A DNA stretch of 64,000 nucleotides from contig OZ038463.1 in NCBI GenBank assembly GCA_964036295.1, forward strand, positions 34,053,295 to 34,117,294. Reading direction: 5' to 3'. A program made the position numbers and the translations under genes. Source of the stretch: Plumapathes pennacea. Lineage: Eukaryota > Cnidaria > Anthozoa > Antipatharia > Myriopathidae. Shown here piece after piece: positions 300 through 44,853 of the stretch (within the stretch, counting starts at the first letter, position 1; the number at the start of each line of letters is the position of its first letter). Below the pieces are notes generated by a model. That model ran no database searches. It saw nothing but the letters and a program-made list of their open reading frames with translations, and was not told the origin of the DNA.

Positions 300-1157
300 A
301 TGAACTGCGTTTGGTTGTTTATTTCCCTGGCAGTATTCCATGGAACTGGCCATGCATGTGAGTATATATTATGTTTGTATATGAACTCGCCACCTATTTC
401 AGCACTTCTTGTTATATTTGATAAGCGAACTTTGTGAGATAAGGCTAGTCTGTTAAAAGGACTCTATGGCGGGGCCGCTGTCTGTCCATGTTTGTCTCAC
501 ACGCACACATACTTCATTTCTGGCTCTCTGAATCTATTCTGAGTTAGTCACTGGTAGTGGAATATTGTGTAGTGTAAACTGCTTCTCCGCCAGAGCAAGC
601 GAAACTGGGACTAAAGAGAGAGGAAAAATTGAATGTAAAAAAATTTCTGACTGTTACCCTTTCTGGCAACAACAGACCGATCTTTGCCAAGTTTTGACAA
701 GTTGAAGAAGGCCTACCCAGGGTATTTTCAGTATTCAAGCCCTCGAGTCAAAGCAATAATCGGAGGGAATGTCGATGCAAATTACATTGGCAACACGTGC
801 GCCGTGCGCATGTCCAGAGCCCTGAACCAAGTTGGTGGTCATGACATAACGCAACCTCAGTATGTTTGGATTAATGGCCGCCGCCGGTACGACAGTGTCA
901 GAGGAGCGGACGGCAAACAATACATCTTTCGGGTTACGGGGCTTGGGAGATACATGGAAAAGACATATGGCCCGCCCGTTACCGGCTATTCGAAGTCTGA
1001 TTTCTCTGGGAAGAAAGGAATCATGAGGCTGAATCTATCCGGCAGTAGCTCATACACGGGTCACTTTGCATTGTGGGATGGAAGTGGCTTCTACCAGTCA
1101 GAAGATTACTTCGATGACGCCACTGGGCGAAAATACCTTTGGATGACTACTGGTTAG
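300..1157 (+). CDS. Secreted Tae4-family peptidoglycan amidase (domesticated type VI effector, dae4-like)
   Basis: Two coding exons, 300-357 and 676-1157 (540 nt, 179 aa). Exon 1 encodes a hydrophobic leader that reads as a signal peptide (about residues 1-19). The 317-bp intron has a GTGAGT donor and an AACAG acceptor and splits a Tyr codon. The mature part matches the Tae4 amidase family: an NTCAVRMSRALN block carries the presumed nucleophile Cys61, and TGHFALWDG carries His149 with Asp154 nearby, the Cys-His layout of these NlpC/P60-like DL-endopeptidases. Family knowledge: bacterial Tae4 cleaves the D-Glu/mDAP bond of peptidoglycan, and eukaryotic dae genes were acquired by transfer and act in innate defence. 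All key residues are present and no frame break is seen. An acceptor at 280-281 suggests an untranslated leader exon further upstream, outside the window. The antibacterial role in this host is inferred. Confidence 0.88.
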
Positions 1158-3861: not shown

Positions 3862-10565
<6,704 letters not shown>

Positions 10566-12248: not shown

Positions 12249-15200
12249 ATGGCAGAAGAAGCGGTAAAAATGGACAATTCCGGTGAGTGTCTGTAGCCAG
12301 TGGAGTGCAGCTAAACGTGAACGTGCAAGTCCTGTCCTAATTCGGAGAAATTAATCACTTCTTGGACTTAACGAAGTCGAACTGATCCAGTGCAATGATG
12401 CGACACACCTCTTGTGTAAACAATTTTCACTTTTATATGAAAGCCGCTGCTGTAAATACAAACATCTTGTTTTGACTCCTTGCAGTGAGCTATAAAACCA
12501 GAGAGACATTTTGGTTTTCTTCTGCCAAACGCGCCCTAGTTTACATGTATGGGCAAAACCCGGGAAAAGTAGTTACGACATTTTGTGACTTGCGAAGTAA
12601 AGTGTCTGCGAGACTGAATGTCTGATCGACCAAATCCCAGCCCAGGGATTCCCAGACCAATATGAAGTGATGGCTTCTATGGCGTACTGTGGAGTGGCAA
12701 CACAGCTGTTTATTGAAGGGGCTTGAAGTGACTATATAAAAATTATAATTTATTATTACTTTCAGCACAAGATTAACCTAATTTGCTTTGTTTTTGGTAT
12801 CGATGTTGTCGTTAATGACTATTAATAAGATGATGATGCTTCAAACGTGATATTTTTCACACGAAAGAAAATCCGCAGCAATTAAAACAGGATCGGAAGT
12901 GATGTGAAGTGATTTGCCAGCTTGTTCTGAATGGGTAGAGAGCTTCTATGAAAGGATCGAACCTTTGTTACCAGGGTGAACAGACATTTCAGGCAAACAT
13001 GAGACAGGTTTCCCTCACAAAGCTTTCTTGGGTTATTCCTTTGAAAATACAGTTTCAAGAAAAGTAACAGTCTGCCTTCTGACATACTCCTGCTGTACCA
13101 TGAATATACACCCAGAGAATGGACTCAAAATGTGATCATGTAATTCCTTTGGTTTGGCTTATGCTGTACTTTTTGGTCCAAACAAGCATTCAAAGGTCCT
13201 TTCTCTGAAGAGAAACAGCAACACAGTTTTAACATGCCAACCCTTGGTTGATTCATCATTTTAAGGCAACATTCAAGAGTATAAACCTGATTTTGTATCA
13301 TCTCTCGCACAGATGAAAGTCCAGCCTTTTCTTCGACACACGACTATGTCATCTGTGGTGCTGGCTCGGCGGGATGTGTCCTGGCCAATCGGCTGTCAGC
13401 TGACTCTAGCAACCAGGTGCTGCTGTTGGAGGCAGGTCCACCAGACAAGTCATGGAAGATCCACATGCCAGGAGCTATGATCCTCAACATTATGGACAGC
13501 AGCCACCACTGGGGATACCAGACTGAACCACAAGAACACTTGAACAACAGGCAAGGGCAAAATAGCAGATGGATTTCTGTATTTGACATTTGTCTGTATC
13601 TAGCTAGTTAGTTGACCACAGGAAACATTTTGTGTGCATGTGTGCAACTTTAATCACCATTAGCTCTCTCCTTGTGCAGACAGTTCATGTGGCCCATGGG
13701 GCGAGTACTGGGAGGCTCTTCATGCATGCACTTCATGGCCTACGTCCGAGGACACCCCTTTGATTATGATAGATGGGAGAAGGAAGGTGCAGAGGGCTGG
13801 TCCTATGCTGACTGTCTGCCATACTTTAAGAAGTCTCAGACACATGAACTAGGTACATTTATGTTGAAAATGTCCATTTTCCTGCTTTTAATAATTCCTT
13901 CCATCCTTTCCTTCTTTCATTCTTTCCATCCATTCTTTCCCTCCTTCCAACCTACTCATTCATTCCATGCTGCTTATCCATTCTTTCCTTTTCTTCCATC
14001 CATCCATTCCTTCCTTCCATTCTTTCCTATTTTTCTTCCATCCATTCCTTCCTTCCATCCATTCTTTCCTTTTTTCTTCCACCCATTCCTGTCTTCCTTC
14101 CATCAATCCATTCATCTATCCATCCATCCTTCTATCCCTTCTTCCATCCATCCATCCATCCATCCATTCCTTTCTTTTTTCCATCCATCCTTTCTTCCTC
14201 TCTTTCTTCCATCCATCCTATATTCCATGCATCCAATCTTTCTTTCCTTCTTTCATTCCATCCATCTATCTATTCTTTCTTTTCTTTTTCCTTCTTTCCT
14301 AATGTTTAATCTCACATACTTTCCCTAGTTTGCAACTTAAAAATTTGAATCAGACAGCTTGTCACTTACAGCATGAAAGAGAGTATCAGTAAATGAAAAT
14401 GTTGCTTACATTGGAATGTGAAGAAAACATTTCAAAACTTACAATAAGTCACGTGCTTTGCTCTTGACAAGGTGGCAATGAATACCGTGGAGGCGATGGT
14501 CCACTCCACATATCACGTGGAAAATCCAAGAACCCTCTGATCAAGGCATTTGTAGATGCAGGGCAGGAAGCAGGTTATCCATTCACTGAAGATGTGAATG
14601 GTTTCCAGCAGGAGGGCTTTGGCTTTCTGGACATGAATATTCATCAAGGTGCACGCGACAGCTCAGCCACTTCATACCTCAAACCTGCCATGCAGCGTGA
14701 AAACCTGACGATAGAAACAACTGCTATTGTCACCAAGATCCTGTTTGAAGAGAGGCGGGCAATTGGTGTGGAATACCGCAAAGATGATAAGACCTTCCGC
14801 GCAAAAGCAACCAAAGAAGTTATAGTATGTGCAGGTAAGGAGATCAGGGGCAGGGGTTTTGTTAGTATCTTGATAGTTTGCTCAGATGAAAGCTGACTTG
14901 GACAATCAATATTTTCACCACAACACTCATACAGTTTCTTCTGGATTGGTGGGACCAGAATCTGCATTATGAACTTAGAAGTGAAAGGGTTAACTCTTTC
15001 ACTCCCAAGAGTCATCAAGTTCAATTTTATTCTTCAATTTTGGCAGCACAAATATATCATAATTTATAGTAAAGATTGAACTACACATTCTCATACTCAT
15101 ACTGTACAATTTCCTCTTAAAAGTTAGGAGAATCTGCATTTTGAACTCGAGGAAGGGTTAAAGAGCCAGTGTGTAACTTTCTTATTTACAACATGATTAA

Positions 15201-17771
15201 TATGAAGGAGCTATAATTCAGCAAAAGTTGAGTTCAGCTCTATGTACCAAATCTATTCCCACTCAAACCCCCAGACAGTTTCACCCTCAGCTGAGTGGGG
15301 CCCAGACCCCTGGCCTGAATCTGTGCCTGATATAAATTTGCAGAGATTTGTATAGATTTCTGAGTTTAGCAGTTTGACCAATAATGTTCTCATGTCACCC
15401 ACTTAGGTGCTATTGGATCACCCCAGCTACTCATGTTGTCCGGCATTGGAAATGCAGATGACTTGGAAAAACTTGGCATTCCTGTTGTGGCTAACTTACC
15501 AGGTGTGGGAAAAAATCTGCAAAACCATCTGCAAGTTTGTGTTCATCAGGTAAGGGTTCCATGATTAACTGTTAAACCCCTTGAATGCCAAGGATGTCTA
15601 TAAAGTATAATCTTCAAAAATACTGTGGGAAAATGTGTTTGTCATAACGGGAGTTTGTTATGTCGGGGTTCTGTTCCATACATTTACTGTAACTTTGCTG
15701 GCCTGGCTGAAGAATATCATTCATTATACTGTCAGGGGGGACTTCGTTATAGAGGAGTTTGTTATATAAGGGTTCGACTGTTAAGGAAAAGGTGCTCTGC
15801 AGTATCATGATTGCTTTTGCTTGGCATGCAGTGTTATCTTGATGACATGATCACCACCATTTATTTGCAGGATTGTACCCAGTCAGTGTCGCTGGCCGGT
15901 TCCCACAAGTGGTGGAAGGCACTGCCCACCACGGCACTCTGGTCCGTGTTCAAGAGTGGCCCAGGGACGACCACAAACATAGAAGCTGTGGGATTTGTTC
16001 GCAACAGTGAGAGTTCTGTGCAGCCTGACATACAGTTCTTTATCCTGCCAATGTCAGATCATCACATGGACCAACATGCTTTTCAGGTGAACCAAACCCA
16101 GGTGTCAATAACCCTTTCAGTCCCAAGCTCAAAATACAAATTCTCCCAACCATAAAATAAGGAAATTTACTACACGACTTCACATTTTCGAGTGCAAATA
16201 CGGGCCAAAACGAGTGCAAAGATGGGAGCGTATTGCACTCGTCAGGAACCAGATCAACTGGTTTATTGGCTTACGTGATCAGTTTTCGCAAGCAAAGTTT
16301 ACGAATGCGTCATTTTTTGTTCCATTTTGTGCGCGGCAAGAATGTTTGCCCTGCTTCGTTTGTCGTGTAATAAACAATTTATTACACGAAAAGTCGTGCA
16401 ATACGGCTGTATTTTTACTCGTCAGTTTTATTTTTTCTCGCCTGAAGCAGGCTCGAAAAAATAAAACCGACTCGTAAAAATACTCCGCCGTATTGCACTC
16501 CTTCCCATGTAATAACCTCTTTGTATGAGTGATGAAAAGAGAATTTATGTTTTAATCAGCTGTCATTTGAGCAAGGTATCAAATGTCAAATTCTCCATAC
16601 TTTATGATATATCTCTGGTGGGAGATTGAAGTTGATCACTCTTGGGAGTCCCAAGCTCAAAATACAGATTCTCCCAATCTTTTAAGAAGAACGAGTGCTT
16701 CTCGTTTTGCTCACCAATTCCCTCCTATATTGTCCAGATATTTGCAGGTCCTTTGCGTCCTACTAGTGTGGGCCATATCCAGCTAAAATCGGCCAATCCC
16801 CTGGACCCCCCTGTCATTCAACCCAACTATCTGTCCACAGAAAAGGACCGCCAGGAAATGAGGGACTCCATACGATTGGCAAGGAAGGTTATTGCCCAGC
16901 ATGCATTTGAACCTTTCAGAGGCAAAGAGCTACTGCCAGGTAAGTGAGCTCAAATACAGATTCTCTCAACCCTTCAGGAGGAAAATGTGTAAGTGATGTA
17001 GTGAGAATTGATAGTTTAATCAGCTTTTATCTGAACAAGGTATTAAAAGCCAAGTTCTCCTTACTGTACGATATATCTCTGGTGAGAAACTGAAGGAGAA
17101 AATTGATGTTTGTCATTGAGAGTGAAAGGGTTAAAGAAAGTATAGTTGAAGGTGTAACATTTTTAACCCTTTCACTCTCAAGAGTGATCAACTTCAAAAT
17201 GTATGCAAAAAGACATATTTTCAAAATCTAAAACATTGACCATGAACTGTGCATTAAACCTATAGTTCACAGACACTAAAACCAACACTTCTTTAACAGT
17301 TGATTGTCAGTCAAAGTCGACACTGTGAAAAACTGTTGGACAACTAATGTCCACTGCGACTGATTGCCATTTTAAGCTTTTGGTTGGATGATGGAGTCTG
17401 GGACCCCCAAAAATAATAAATTATATGAGGATGCAGATTTTTACCAGAACCCGTCTTTATTTTTAGGTGAAAAAGTTCAGAGTGACGAAGAGATTGATGT
17501 TTACATCAAGGCAGAAACCATCTCAGGGTACCATGTGTCATGCACCTGCAAGATGGGTTCAGAAAATGACCCCAATACTGTTGTGGACAGCAAAACTTGT
17601 GTTATTGGTGTCAAGAATCTTCGGGTGGTAGATGCATCAATCATGCCGAGCATTGTGAGCGGCAATCTTAATGGGCCCACAGTCATGCTGGCAGAGAAGG
17701 CAGCAGATATCATTCTGGAAAAGGATCCCTTGCCCAAGTCAACCGCTGCAGTGTTCAAAGTTGCTGAATAG
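12249..17771 (+). CDS. CHDH: Choline dehydrogenase (GMC oxidoreductase)
   Basis: Eight exons: 12249-12282, 13313-13550, 13680-13852, 14472-14834, 15407-15549, 15871-16086, 16738-16939, 17467-17771 (557 aa; human 594). FAD is bound by the GAGSAG loop (residues 27-32). MGRVLGGSS, the [16 protein letters not shown] signature 2, the HVSCTCKMG catalytic His block and [19 protein letters not shown] near the C-terminus are all close to human CHDH. The enzyme oxidises choline to betaine aldehyde, the first step to the osmolyte betaine and a methyl source. The family enzyme sits on the inner mitochondrial membrane, but this short acidic N-terminus does not look like a targeting peptide, so the first exon or the location may differ. 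Intron 2 starts with GC (AG|GCAAGG). Many MITE fragments sit in the introns. Confidence 0.93.
13880..14310. repeat. Pyrimidine-rich CCATCCATTCTTTC minisatellite
   Basis: About 430 bp of degenerate tandem units built from CCATCCATT, CCTTCC and CTTTCTTTT lie in the choline dehydrogenase intron 3. The long Ser/Phe/His/Pro-only open frames here are repeat by-products. Confidence 0.85.
16109..16680. repeat. TTAA-type MITE split by a second insertion
   Basis: The sequence typical of the MITE at 11821 (CAGTCCCAAGCTCAAAATAC) begins here, breaks at about 16165, resumes at about 16505 (GTATGAGTGATGAAAAGAG) and runs on to CACTCTTGGGAGTC. The 340 bp in between carry their own inverted motifs built from CGAGTGCAATACGG / TATTGCACTC. 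The result is a nested insertion inside the choline dehydrogenase intron before exon 16738. Confidence 0.6.
16951..17130. repeat. TTAA-type MITE fragment
   Basis: Starts inside the family consensus (CTCAAATACAGATTCTCTC) and ends GAGAGTGAAAGGG followed by TTAA (17131-17134). The left terminus is lost. A further inverted fragment starts at 17163. Confidence 0.6.
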
Positions 17772-29664: not shown

Positions 29665-32600
29665 GAGCAAAACTGTAGATTCAAGTGCAGATTTAGTCGC
29701 TCATAAACATCCGGAGGCTTGGCTACAAAACTCAATACTAGGACTTGATATTAGACTACAGTTGAAGCTCTCTGGGTGGACACTCTCGTAAGCAGACAGC
29801 TGTACCGGACGCCCCTACCAAGCCCCGCTTAAACTCTAGCTCAGTCAAACTCTGTATTACGCATTCTTGTAAGCGGACAGTTCCAGTTACGGACACTCCG
29901 CTCACAAAAGCTTCAACTTGATAAGTTAGTTCAATGCAGTTTCTATAACACAAGAAAAATGGACCTTGGACACAGATCAGCTAACAAGCCAAAGAAAGAA
30001 AGGAAAAATAAAAATAAAGAAAATAGGAAAGACAAAAAGAAAGAAAGAAAGCTGAGACAGCCGGTAAAATATACTCACGGGGTCTTTATCCGTCCACTTG
30101 TGCCCATTGTACTTTGTAGCCGTGGAATTTTTATCACCATACTGCTTCATACTCACAGACCCTGCTATGATTGCTGATTCAAAATAGTCAAGGAGCAAAC
30201 AGGAATAGAAAAAAAGAGCTGCGCAAAATTGCACTCATGTGGTCGTGCTACCACAAACTGACCATGTTACCGACCACGTTAACGACCATGTTACCGATCA
30301 CATACCGACCATGTTACCGATCATGTTACCGACCACATACCGACCACATACCGACCATGTTACCGATCATGTTACCGACCACATACCGACCATGTTACCG
30401 ATCATGTTACCGATCATGTTACCGACCACATACCGACAATGTTACTGATCATGTTACCGACACATACCGACCATGTTACCGATCATGTTACCGACCACAT
30501 ACCGACCATGTTACCGATCATGTTACCGATCACATACCGACCATGTTACCGATCATGTTACCGACCACATACCGACCATGTTACCGATCATGTTACCGAC
30601 CACATACCGACCATGTTACCGATCATGTTACCGACCACATACCGACCATGTTACCGACCACAAAAGTGTGGTGTCTGCCACAAGTTACACCGGTCGGTAT
30701 GTGGTCCGTAAAGTTACTCATGTAGTAGTGTTACCGACCACATACCGATCACATACCAATGCATTAATTCACATCAAGCAGTGTGATGTTTGCAACAAGC
30801 GGCACTGGTCAGTATTTGGTTGGTAAAGTCACCCATGCATCGTGTTACCGTCCACATATCGACCACGTTACCGACCACATATCGACCAAATACCGACCAC
30901 ATTACCGACCACATGCTGACCAGTACAACTTGTTTACAATATTCCTGAACCATGATGATATGTCTCTCAAAAGGATACTCAATAAGAAGCAGATTGTAAC
31001 AACAGCAGACAAAACAAACCGAGCATAACAACTGAGGTGCGAGCTCATGCCGTGACCAATCATCTTGTGTGAGATGAATGTTTGCAGCCAGCAGTACGTC
31101 GTCCCCAAGCCAAACACCAGGATTGCACCAATCAAATGTGGAGTAAGGATATTGTACACCTACAAAACAAAACACCAACTGTCATGTCAGGAGTGATCAA
31201 CTTCAATTTTCTCTCTCTGTGTCTCACCAAAAGCATACATTTTCCACTAAGGATAACTTGGCTATTGATAGATCAATTCCAGCTATCACATGTTTCTTAC
31301 AGCCTCTGTGATCGGCAGTGTAAATTCTTTGGTTGTATGAAAGTCACCTGAAAAGCTCTCATAAGCGACCAGCTCTAGCTACAATCACATTTTTAAATTC
31401 CCAAGGTGGTCACTTACGAGAGCTTCAACTGTAATAATATTGATTAAAATGTACAATGATCATCACAGTCAACAACAAAATAATTTTTAGGTTGGTTGTG
31501 ATTGTCCGGGTTAGAGTAGTCTCCAGAAAGACTGTTGTTGGTGACTGACGTTTCGACTACCTGAGCGGAAGTCATCTTCAGAGTCAAGTGAAAAGTATTC
31601 GTCAGATGGCGGTATATATGTCTCTCACTGCCATCTGACGAATACTTTTCACTTGACTCTGAAGATGACTTCCGCTCAGGTAGTCGAAACGTCAGTCACC
31701 AACAACAGTCTTTCTGGAGACTACTCTAACCCGGACGATCACAACCAACCTACTGTTCACACTCCTGGGTTCAAACCATTTGCCAAAATAATTTTTAATT
31801 TTTTACAAAATAAATTTAATTCTTTCAATTATTGAATCAAATTTATCTCTTGGGGAGAAGAGGATACAGCCTAGAGCACAACTAGGGGACAGTAACTGTT
31901 TATCAGGAGGTTTGGCTGAGGGCAGGGAGGGGTAAAGGATGTTAATATTTTACCTGGAAATTAGCAACCATGGACAATCCCAGACAGGTAGGGACAGCAA
32001 TCCACAAAGAAATGGTGTTCACTTTTTGTATGATGGGAATGCTGGTGATGTTGAACTCCTTTATGTGCTTGTAATGAATGTACATCGCAATAAAAGCTGC
32101 AAGATGAAGACACATTCAATTTTCATTTTTAACATTATACCCTTCAGGACCTGGTTGATCAAAGCTGATGATTATCTATAACTGATGATTCTTTCTCTCA
32201 TGCTTTTGTGCAACAATATTAAACAATAGAGTTTTTGGTCAAACACTAACTAACTTTTTGTTCTTACTCAAAACATAGCAAGGATGTCATTTTGTCATTT
32301 TGCTTAGTTTTCATGCAGCCTTAGAAATTGCAACAATACCTTAACCTAATCCAGCTGGACTAGCCTATAATCTTTGAATAGCTGGGCCCAGGGGCCTGTC
32401 CTTTTTATGTGGGAGTCCCCTTTTGGGCAGATGGGCCCAGTTTCTCAACAAAGATAACACAGTAAAGGGAGAATTTTTAGCGGGCACAAAATGCTAAGAC
32501 AAAAATTAATGCATTGCGTAAACTCTTAATCTGCAATAATTACAGAATGATTATCTCTAACAATGGCGTACTGTACCTGTTGCAGCTGATAGATTTAGGA

Positions 32601-42804: not shown

Positions 42805-44331
42805 CTAACCCTTAGGAGCTTTCCGACATATGGCGCCGAAGTCGCATCTTGAGGTGTAGTGGGCGTAGAAACCAAGAAATTCGGACAGATCGCATACTGC
42901 TTTCCCGCGACAAGCCGGGGTGGTCACAGGTGTTTCGTTCACCAGAATTTGCACCTTGTACCCTCTGAATTTTCCCGCCTTTTTTGGACTCGACTCATCA
43001 CCGCACCCGGTTTGGACGTCGTCACTTTTCCCCGCCTTTTTCTGGGTGCAACCGCGTTTAAATTTGACCACAGGGGCGTCTGGACTTTCTCGGCAGCCAT
43101 CTTGTACACTTCCGTTTTTCCTAGCGTCCGCACAGTCGTACAAAACGAACGCTACGTTTCCCGACATCGGAACGATATCTGCGACGCGGAATTTCCTATG
43201 CCTATGAAAACGAAAGGTCTCTGCCAAAAGAGGTTCCGGATCTTTAAAAAGACCAAGCATTGCCAGAAGTGGAATAACAGTTCCAGTGTGTGCGAAACGA
43301 AACACACCGAAGGGCTTTCGTTCTTTTGTGAAGTGTTGCATTGTCTCGGTGATATCAACAAGCAACGGGCAACTCATTCTGTAGTTTATCTTCTGCCCGT
43401 ACCCGCGCGCCCAGTAGATTTTTAAATCAAAGAGGAATTCCAACACTTTCAAGTCTTCTTCTTCAAACACAGAGCACCACTGACCTTCGCGCGCACTCGT
43501 CTGCGTTTCAAATGCACACATCAAAAACAGCTCCACTACTGCATTGGACGAAAGCTGTAATTTCCCGGTTAGGTTCAACTTCCTTTCGATATTCTTAGCC
43601 ACCACTGACATCTCCGGACCTTTCAAGAAGCGGCTGTAGTGACGGACTTGACTCGCTTTGGCAAGTTTCTTATACCGTGGGCAAACGTCGTAAAAGCGAA
43701 GGACTCTATCCCTGTCTTGCGGACCAGAACATTTGACCGCAATTGGCTGGTGTTTTTTCTTTGCTCCTGAATGTCCGGCCCCCTCAAAGAGTCCTTGGGC
43801 GAAGGCAAGAGCACTCTGGCTTGTCCGCAGCGTATCGGTTGAGACGAAGCTGTAGCTGTTGTTTGAATATGGATGACCTAAAACATCAGGAAACTTCGCC
43901 GCGTACCTCTTGGCAATCTCGTACATCTCTCTTTTGCCCGAGCGAGCCAGTTCTTTGTTTGCAGCTTCCTTAAAATCCGAAGGCATTTCCCATGGAAGTG
44001 TCAGGTTTTTGTACCGAAATGTCGAGTTGATTGGGAAGAATCGGTTAATCTCCTCCACAACATCCTCGATCTTTCTGCGGTGATATAAGCTTGGATATCT
44101 CGAGCCGTGACGCAAAAGCATGTTCAAATGAACGGGCGTGCATCCCTCGGGTGTCGCCAATACTGTTTTGGCATTGTAGTGATACGGGGTTTTATCACTG
44201 AAGTGATAGTGATCACTATTGAAGTTATGGTGGGGATCTCGCCGCCAGAAAGCGAATGAACTACAAGACTCGGCCACAACAAGAACTTTCAGACAGAAAA
44301 ACCCAACGAGAAGCCAGAAATTTCTCGCCAT
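42805..44331 (-). CDS. Secreted MINPP1-like histidine acid phosphatase
   Basis: Single uninterrupted frame. I start at the Met at 44331 (508 aa), because MARNFWLLVGFFCLKVLVVAES is then a clean signal peptide. An in-frame ATG at 44397 would add 22 residues ahead of it. The RHGSRYP phosphohistidine motif lies about 74 residues in, with STDTLRTSQSALAF, many Cys and a MINPP-like VPMSGNVAFVLYDC block near the C-terminus. MINPP1 removes phosphates from inositol polyphosphates including phytate and, as in the family, acts in the secretory pathway or outside the cell. The family's HAE proton-donor triplet reads HTG here (FAHTGTVIP), so the acid Glu is missing. A Lys/Cys-rich insertion of about 50 residues follows. 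It is the only intronless gene in the window. Confidence 0.85.
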   Translation of the reverse strand: MARNFWLLVGFFCLKVLVVAESCSSFAFWRRDPHHNFNSDHYHFSDKTPYHYNAKTVLATPEGCTPVHLNMLLRHGSRYPSLYHRRKIEDVVEEINRFFPINSTFRYKNLTLPWEMPSDFKEAANKELARSGKREMYEIAKRYAAKFPDVLGHPYSNNSYSFVSTDTLRTSQSALAFAQGLFEGAGHSGAKKKHQPIAVKCSGPQDRDRVLRFYDVCPRYKKLAKASQVRHYSRFLKGPEMSVVAKNIERKLNLTGKLQLSSNAVVELFLMCAFETQTSAREGQWCSVFEEEDLKVLEFLFDLKIYWARGYGQKINYRMSCPLLVDITETMQHFTKERKPFGVFRFAHTGTVIPLLAMLGLFKDPEPLLAETFRFHRHRKFRVADIVPMSGNVAFVLYDCADARKNGSVQDGCRESPDAPVVKFKRGCTQKKAGKSDDVQTGCGDESSPKKAGKFRGYKVQILVNETPVTTPACRGKAVCDLSEFLGFYAHYTSRCDFGAICRKAPKG

Positions 44332-44397
44332 GACTTTTGTGCGTGCTAACGTCGCGAAATTTGAGACTTCAGAGCAGAACTTCATGATCGTAAACAA

Positions 44398-44853
44398 ACA
44401 ATAGATGGATTATATTTCCTGGGTGGTATCCAAAACGTGCAGCCTGTTCTGTCGTATTCCTAATGCATATCAGCCCGTCCCGAGCTCCTAAAAGTACAGC
44501 AGCGACACGAGGCCGTTCGGACCTAAAGTACTTTCGCATTCCCAACTCATTTAATTATTGAGCCAACGCCCTGGGGCGAGATTCATACATTAACATTCGG
44601 CAGATCGTCGGCCAGCCTCGTAACCGCCTCGTAATCAAGCCCTTTATTGCTATTGTTGAGAATTTACCAAATTCTTTCTCTCAGCGTCGTGGTCAACAAT
44701 GCAGAGTTTTGTTAAAGAATAGTAACTAAAATCCTTACTCTAGCTCAAACACATCGACGAGGTCGTGTTTCGAGCAAACCTTTCTCATTTTCAGGCTTAA
44801 ATGTCATAAAAATTTAGACCCCATCCAATGCACCTGGGCCCGGTTGTTTAAAG
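44398..44853. other. Short gap between MINPP1-like and ACCS-like genes
   Basis: About 450 bp. It should hold the MINPP1-like promoter and 5'UTR and the ACCS-like 3'UTR, as both genes read leftward. No motif stands out. Confidence 0.4.

Follow-up and report, generated by a model that had tools for sequence, protein, structure and literature searches.

We consider it probable that the 64,000-nucleotide stretch of DNA analysed here (the window; C2:34053295-34117294) carries an intact two-exon gene of a likely anthozoan animal that belongs to the Tae4 family, was likely acquired from a bacterium, and encodes a predicted secreted protein that would cut peptidoglycan as an antibacterial enzyme, that is, a domesticated amidase of the Dae4 type. 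The window is part of a contig of 37,941,048 bp (C2) in a genome of 290,015,204 bases assembled in 24 contigs. The gene, referred to below as gene A, belongs to a small tandem array in which B is an intact paralogue and C a truncated copy.

Gene Structure and Predicted Leader

Gene A opens with an ATG at position 300, closes with a stop codon at 1155-1157, and has predicted exons of 58 and 482 bases that join into an in-frame product of 179 amino acids (Table 1). The first-pass annotation had described a signal-bearing leader on an exon of its own, followed by an intron at 358-675, and this description is upheld, as the frame joins, exon 1 and the splice sites are conserved in paralogue B, and secretion is predicted. 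Among 20,000 dinucleotide shuffles of the upstream sequence, 124 produced a leader-like exon with a GTRAGT donor of the right phase and 918 produced any open ATG-to-donor exon, so that the leader of gene A taken alone is only moderately beyond chance. At the sequence level, the retention of exon 1 and both splice sites by paralogue B is stronger evidence than these statistics.

A bacterial-style, unspliced start was considered and rejected, as the first in-frame ATG of exon 2 (Met65) falls after Cys61; TTG at 684, read from the sequence as another candidate start, would need bacterial initiation.

Family Assignment and Active Site

The product of gene A matches the Pfam Tae4 profile (PF14113) over residues 59-165 with an E-value of 3e-17 and 63.3 bits against a curated cut-off of 27, in agreement with the original assignment to Tae4-type amidases, a family with which bacteria attack one another's cell walls. 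Its predicted fold is the Tae4 version of the NlpC/P60 papain-like fold, and a search of NCBIfam gave no match. Two of the residues first proposed for the active site, Cys61 and His149, are indeed in place, being invariant in alignment A2, on whose 44 rows residue conservation was counted. The proposed third catalytic residue, Asp154, has to be replaced: its column holds Asp in 38 of the 44 rows and Asn in the other 6, and it aligns with Asn131 of Salmonella Tae4, in which Asp137 sits eleven residues after the histidine (His+11), a position held in gene A by Gln160. Excerpts of the report on the Salmonella enzyme give Cys44, His126 and Asp137 as its catalytic residues and state that Ala at any one of them abolishes the growth defect (PMC3695027).

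Gln at His+11 is common to A, paralogue B and the relative P0001, and Cys61 is the sole Cys of mature protein A, which is thus without the Cys135/Cys139 pair of Salmonella Tae4. Both differences would suit a transferred Tae4-family gene that has been kept but is no longer an amidase, encoding for instance a peptidoglycan-binding or regulatory protein; this alternative is nevertheless thought unlikely, since Cys61 and His149 are retained in A and B and the His+11 position is not fixed. Of 82 loci, all but 1 contain the motif, and 50 of these 81 have Asp or Glu at that position; of 120 proteins, all but 9 contain it, and Asp or Glu is found in 64 of these 111. The near relatives P0047, P0048, P0049, P0050, P0056 and P0062 have His or Tyr there. 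Because the position varies across the wider family, Asp at His+11 does not define PF14113. Tse1 carries a Cys at the corresponding place, which the same excerpts describe as dispensable for activity (PMC3695027). From this variation and the dispensable Tse1 residue we infer that the product of gene A relies on a dyad of Cys and His, with a polar residue in third place; if the loop is shifted, Glu162 or Asp163 could instead assume the third catalytic role.

The Tandem Array and Its Genomic Context

A family search of the genome found four places, namely gene A, paralogue B (C2:34042004), copy C (C2:34039144) and one exon on contig C4. A, B and C lie on the same strand within about 17 kb, and tblastn found no second copy within the 64-kb window (next matches at E 1.4 or worse). 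Paralogue B has exon 1 at C2:34041436, an intron of 385 bases and exon 2 at C2:34041879-34042375; its product of 184 amino acids scores 60.9 against Pfam Tae4 and is identical to that of gene A at 150 of 177 aligned residues. Exon 1 is identical in the two genes at 58 of 58 bases, with an identical donor and the acceptor AACAG kept, and the introns agree at 262 of 311 aligned columns. Identity peaks at about window 320-439 (coordinates one base high), a stretch that takes in the last part of exon 1 and the first part of the intron and matches at 118 of 120 bases; this may reflect local gene conversion at the leader exon or, alternatively, constraint. For exon 2, dS (synonymous divergence) is 0.252, dN (non-synonymous divergence) 0.101 and dN/dS 0.40 (Nei-Gojobori; one pair only), with a Fisher p of 0.0034 on rounded counts, and these substitutions indicate net purifying selection during the divergence of the two genes.

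Copy C (C2:34039009-34039353, L087) keeps the Cys half of the domain, its frame stopping before the His half, and an exon-1-like match of 114 bases at 83% lies upstream of it. Its loss of the His half would fit a decaying array in which A and B, too, are relics heading to loss without a useful product, a very unlikely state of affairs in view of the intact frames of 179 and 184 amino acids and the dN/dS of 0.40 between them.

The surroundings of gene A are those of an animal chromosome. Between B and A stands a frame that encodes a Hint module (PF01079, 2e-27), and PHF21A-type exons, whose proximity had been noted at first pass, follow downstream of A on the same strand. The first coding stretch of these exons encodes a coiled coil that we take to be PHF21A-like, and the frame with the plant homeodomain (PHD) finger has its best single-finger match in PHF21A (2yql, 5e-22), although full-length CHD4 scores 8.2e-30 over two matched stretches. 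On the strength of the 37.9-Mb contig, the intron, the paralogues and the animal neighbours, gene A is a resident gene of a eukaryotic, animal genome. The first-pass annotation had likewise regarded the locus as domesticated and not as contamination. Bacterial contamination or a misjoined scaffold, which could be argued from the fact that the relatives found are bacterial-type except P0001 and P0046, is extremely unlikely given the position well inside this contig, the three same-strand copies, the conserved intron, the Hint and PHF21A-type neighbours, and a GC content at third codon positions (GC3) of 0.53 in gene A against 0.44, 0.53, 0.51 and 0.44 in four neighbouring coding stretches.

The earlier suggestion of a cnidarian host is supported by the mitochondrial contig C24 (17,711 bp), on which cox1 lies in separated pieces. 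Two cox1 frames (code 4) flank a frame with a LAGLIDADG-type endonuclease-like start, which we take to be an endonuclease of that type. Two transfer RNA (tRNA) genes were found (Met; anticodon TCA), and the Rfam tRNA model recovered the same two, along with ribosomal RNA genes, although both programs can miss unusual mitochondrial tRNAs. Two mitochondrial tRNAs together with a cox1 intron holding such an endonuclease presumably point to Hexacorallia (sea anemones and corals).

Elsewhere in the genome, an apparent second Tae4-like gene with several exons lies on the minus strand at C4:6989582-6992963 (L086, L094). The sequence GQKGIIVFED...TGHVDLWDG is encoded by one exon (E 2.6e-07 against the A2 profile when a 9.9-kb six-frame set was searched); 3 kb upstream, another exon encodes ...PSSGVRMSLALIQSG (E 0.0076), where the column of the catalytic Cys holds Ser. 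The stop flagged in the match is part of a splice acceptor, and the gene is possibly a divergent pseudoenzyme.

Relatives and Bacterial Origin

Protein searches found 45 and then 123 relatives (120 of the 123 listed). Among the matches listed, the only close relatives are P0001, at 65% identity, and P0046, a fragment, at 68%. They are provisionally taken as eukaryotic because the two sequences start within the domain, as would be expected when a bacterial gene finder is applied to an intron-containing gene. The genome contig collection gave no relative when searched with P0001, and 134 matches, of which the best 80 were kept, when searched with alignment A2; viral contigs gave no relative for a single sequence and 2 loci with alignment A2.

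Unrooted trees of 127, 152 and 53 rows, with eukaryotic sampling nearly nil, were drawn from these sequences. P0045 was dropped before the 127-row tree, the 53 rows were hand-picked, and the 152-row tree, a quick tree only and the only one to include P0046, was made after dropping 11 named long or partial rows and loci L043-L082. In the 127- and 53-row trees the window protein is grouped with P0001 in a single clade (100/99) that sits amid bacterial-type rows on stems of 0.78 and 0.84, respectively, and the quick tree has the same clade with P0046 added. Measured by path, the rows closest to this clade are Myxococcota in the 127-row tree, P0048 and Myxococcota in the 53-row tree, and P0050, P0056 and P0048 in the 152-row tree. 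As drawn, the two animal-type rows fall together with a large group of Pseudomonadota type (94/74 with 127 rows, 70/89 with 53 rows), which speaks against a Myxococcota source. Approximately unbiased (AU) tests did not reject a grouping with 18 rows of Myxococcota type (p-AU 0.35), and the same holds for a grouping with P0048, L001 and P0049 (p-AU 0.256); both sets were named after the trees were seen.

Hydrophobic N-terminal leaders occur in 5 of the 112 proteins of at least 150 amino acids (P0048, P0049, P0053, P0057 and P0058) and also at loci L001 and L031. Because bacterial-type relatives carry such leaders, the donor was possibly already exported; of the earlier claim that the gene had gained a secretory leader, the separate exon stands, while a gain inside the animal is only one possibility. 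P0048, the Myxococcales locus L001 and P0049 are among the nearest bacterial-type relatives (40-44% identity) and share a hydrophobic leader with gene A, but their leaders read as lipoprotein-like, with a Cys after the hydrophobic stretch, and they have His or Tyr at His+11. The source of P0049, by its name Pseudobacteriovorax antillogorgiicola, is reported to have been isolated from an octocoral. Ten frames around the Myxococcota loci L001, L003 and L008 (part of each locus) comprised one Tae4 and nine without a Pfam type VI or Tai4 match, and eight stretches of the window gave no match to a secretion or immunity family in Pfam, no search aimed at Tai4 having been made.

A further, rather doubtful proposal is that what was captured was an exported, stand-alone Tae4-type hydrolase from a predatory or host-associated donor resembling Myxococcota or Pseudobacteriovorax, and not a type VI weapon. 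The leader would then have been put on a separate exon, and the array would be a cnidarian's antibacterial arsenal under tandem birth and death, with the leader exon held identical by gene conversion, the catalytic exons diverging and one copy dying.

Predicted Function and Comparison With Known Systems

In the proposed mechanism, the 19-residue leader of exon 1 would bring the protein into the secretory route. With His149 to activate it and Gln160 perhaps to orient it, Cys61 would attack the bond between gamma-D-glutamyl and meso-diaminopimelic acid (mDAP) residues in the peptide stem of Gram-negative-type peptidoglycan. Animals have no peptidoglycan of their own, and for this reason no Tai4 immunity partner would be needed. 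By analogy with bacterial Tae4 (PMC7641422, PMC3695027) and tick Dae2 (PMC11347951, PMC5986905), the product of gene A is expected to cut gamma-D-Glu-mDAP bonds and to affect bacteria. Digestion of bacterial food in the gut by an active secreted Tae4-type hydrolase is nearly as simple a use, as the sequence does not separate digestion from defence and the predicted leader suits either. We regard it as unlikely, however, in that the characterised animal relative, tick Dae2, is described in excerpts of the literature as limiting bacteria (PMC11347951, PMC5986905), a comparison by analogy only.

Several points weigh against the reading of gene A as a secreted antibacterial amidase acquired from a bacterium. 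Gln160 replaces a residue whose Ala mutant is inactive in Salmonella Tae4, according to the excerpted report (PMC3695027). The secretion call comes from a simple hydrophobicity and cleavage-site rule and not from a trained signal-peptide predictor; the dN/dS of 0.40, from one pair, indicates only moderate constraint; copy C is truncated; and eukaryotes are sparsely represented in the protein collections searched, so that the source may have been another eukaryote and not a bacterium directly.

Domesticated amidase effectors (Dae), including Dae2 of ticks, were reportedly described by Chou et al. in 2015. Gene A has in common with them its place in an animal genome, its membership of an amidase effector family, a leader predicted to be of eukaryotic type, and the catalytic Cys and His. 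It differs from tick Dae2, which presumably derives from a different Tae family, in its Tae4 membership, its likely cnidarian host, its tandem array and the predicted nature of its activity. From Tae4 of Salmonella and Enterobacter (PDB 4hff, 4jur, 4j30, 4hfk) it is set apart by Gln at the Asp137 position, the missing Cys135/Cys139 pair, the predicted leader, the intron and the lack of type VI delivery. In eukaryotes, a Tae4-family gene of Giardia muris is reported, in excerpts of its description, as a lateral acquisition, recent in that species (PMC7641422); the likeness to gene A is by description only, and the host is a protozoan gut parasite.

Domesticated amidase effectors are an already published phenomenon (Dae2 in ticks, Tae4 in Giardia muris). 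Among the matches listed, an open-licence literature search gave no paper on a Tae4 or Dae gene from a cnidarian (PMC7379824 concerns other amidases), and a cnidarian lineage may already be in the tables of Chou et al. 2015. What gene A offers is a chromosome-placed enzyme of bacterial antagonism type in a non-bilaterian animal, with an intact duplicate and a truncated copy adjoining. If active, it would open antibacterial domestication to experimental test in an animal group with a surface microbiome, some species of which are amenable to gene removal. For the Dae field it also raises the question of whether the donors were injected effectors or already exported hydrolases.

Other Features of the Window

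Table 1. Features of gene A and of its downstream neighbour, in window coordinates.
Feature	Position	Strand	Basis
Exon 1: start codon and predicted signal peptide MNCVWLFISLAVFHGTGHA	300..357	+	Open, in frame; hydrophobic 10-mer mean 2.62; small residues at -3 and -1
GT-AG intron, 318 bases, phase 1	358..675	+	Donor GTGAGT at 358; acceptor AACAG, AG at 674-675
Exon 2: Tae4 domain and stop codon	676..1157	+	
Codon of Cys61, homologous to catalytic Cys44 of Salmonella Tae4	798..800	+	Invariant in 44/44 rows
Codon of His149, homologous to catalytic His126 of Salmonella Tae4	1062..1064	+	Invariant in 44/44 rows
Codon of Gln160, at His+11, the place of catalytic Asp137 of Salmonella Tae4	1095..1097	+	Alignments
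Candidate poly(A) signal, first AATAAA past the stop codon	1554..1559	+	Motif search only
First coding exons of PHF21A-type gene (3862-3915, 4258-4290, 4414-4479, 5552-5608)	3862..5608	+	Spliced reading
Exon with PHD finger (motif 9470-9541)	9446..9556	+	Pfam PHD 2.2e-07

The window also holds features that touch none of these subjects. At 2134-2321, after a poly-G run near 1930, 188 bases match their own reverse complement at 80%, possibly a small palindromic element, and at 30250-30657 there is a minisatellite with a 35-base unit in 11.7 copies (90% matches). A GMC oxidoreductase gene lies in pieces (N and C domains) at 13291-17768, with TCCATTC-type tandem repeats between its exons at 13977-14247. 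On the minus strand, 42808-44406 is a single open frame of 533 amino acids with a His_Phos_2 domain (1.6e-37), unusually long and unbroken for an intron-rich locus.
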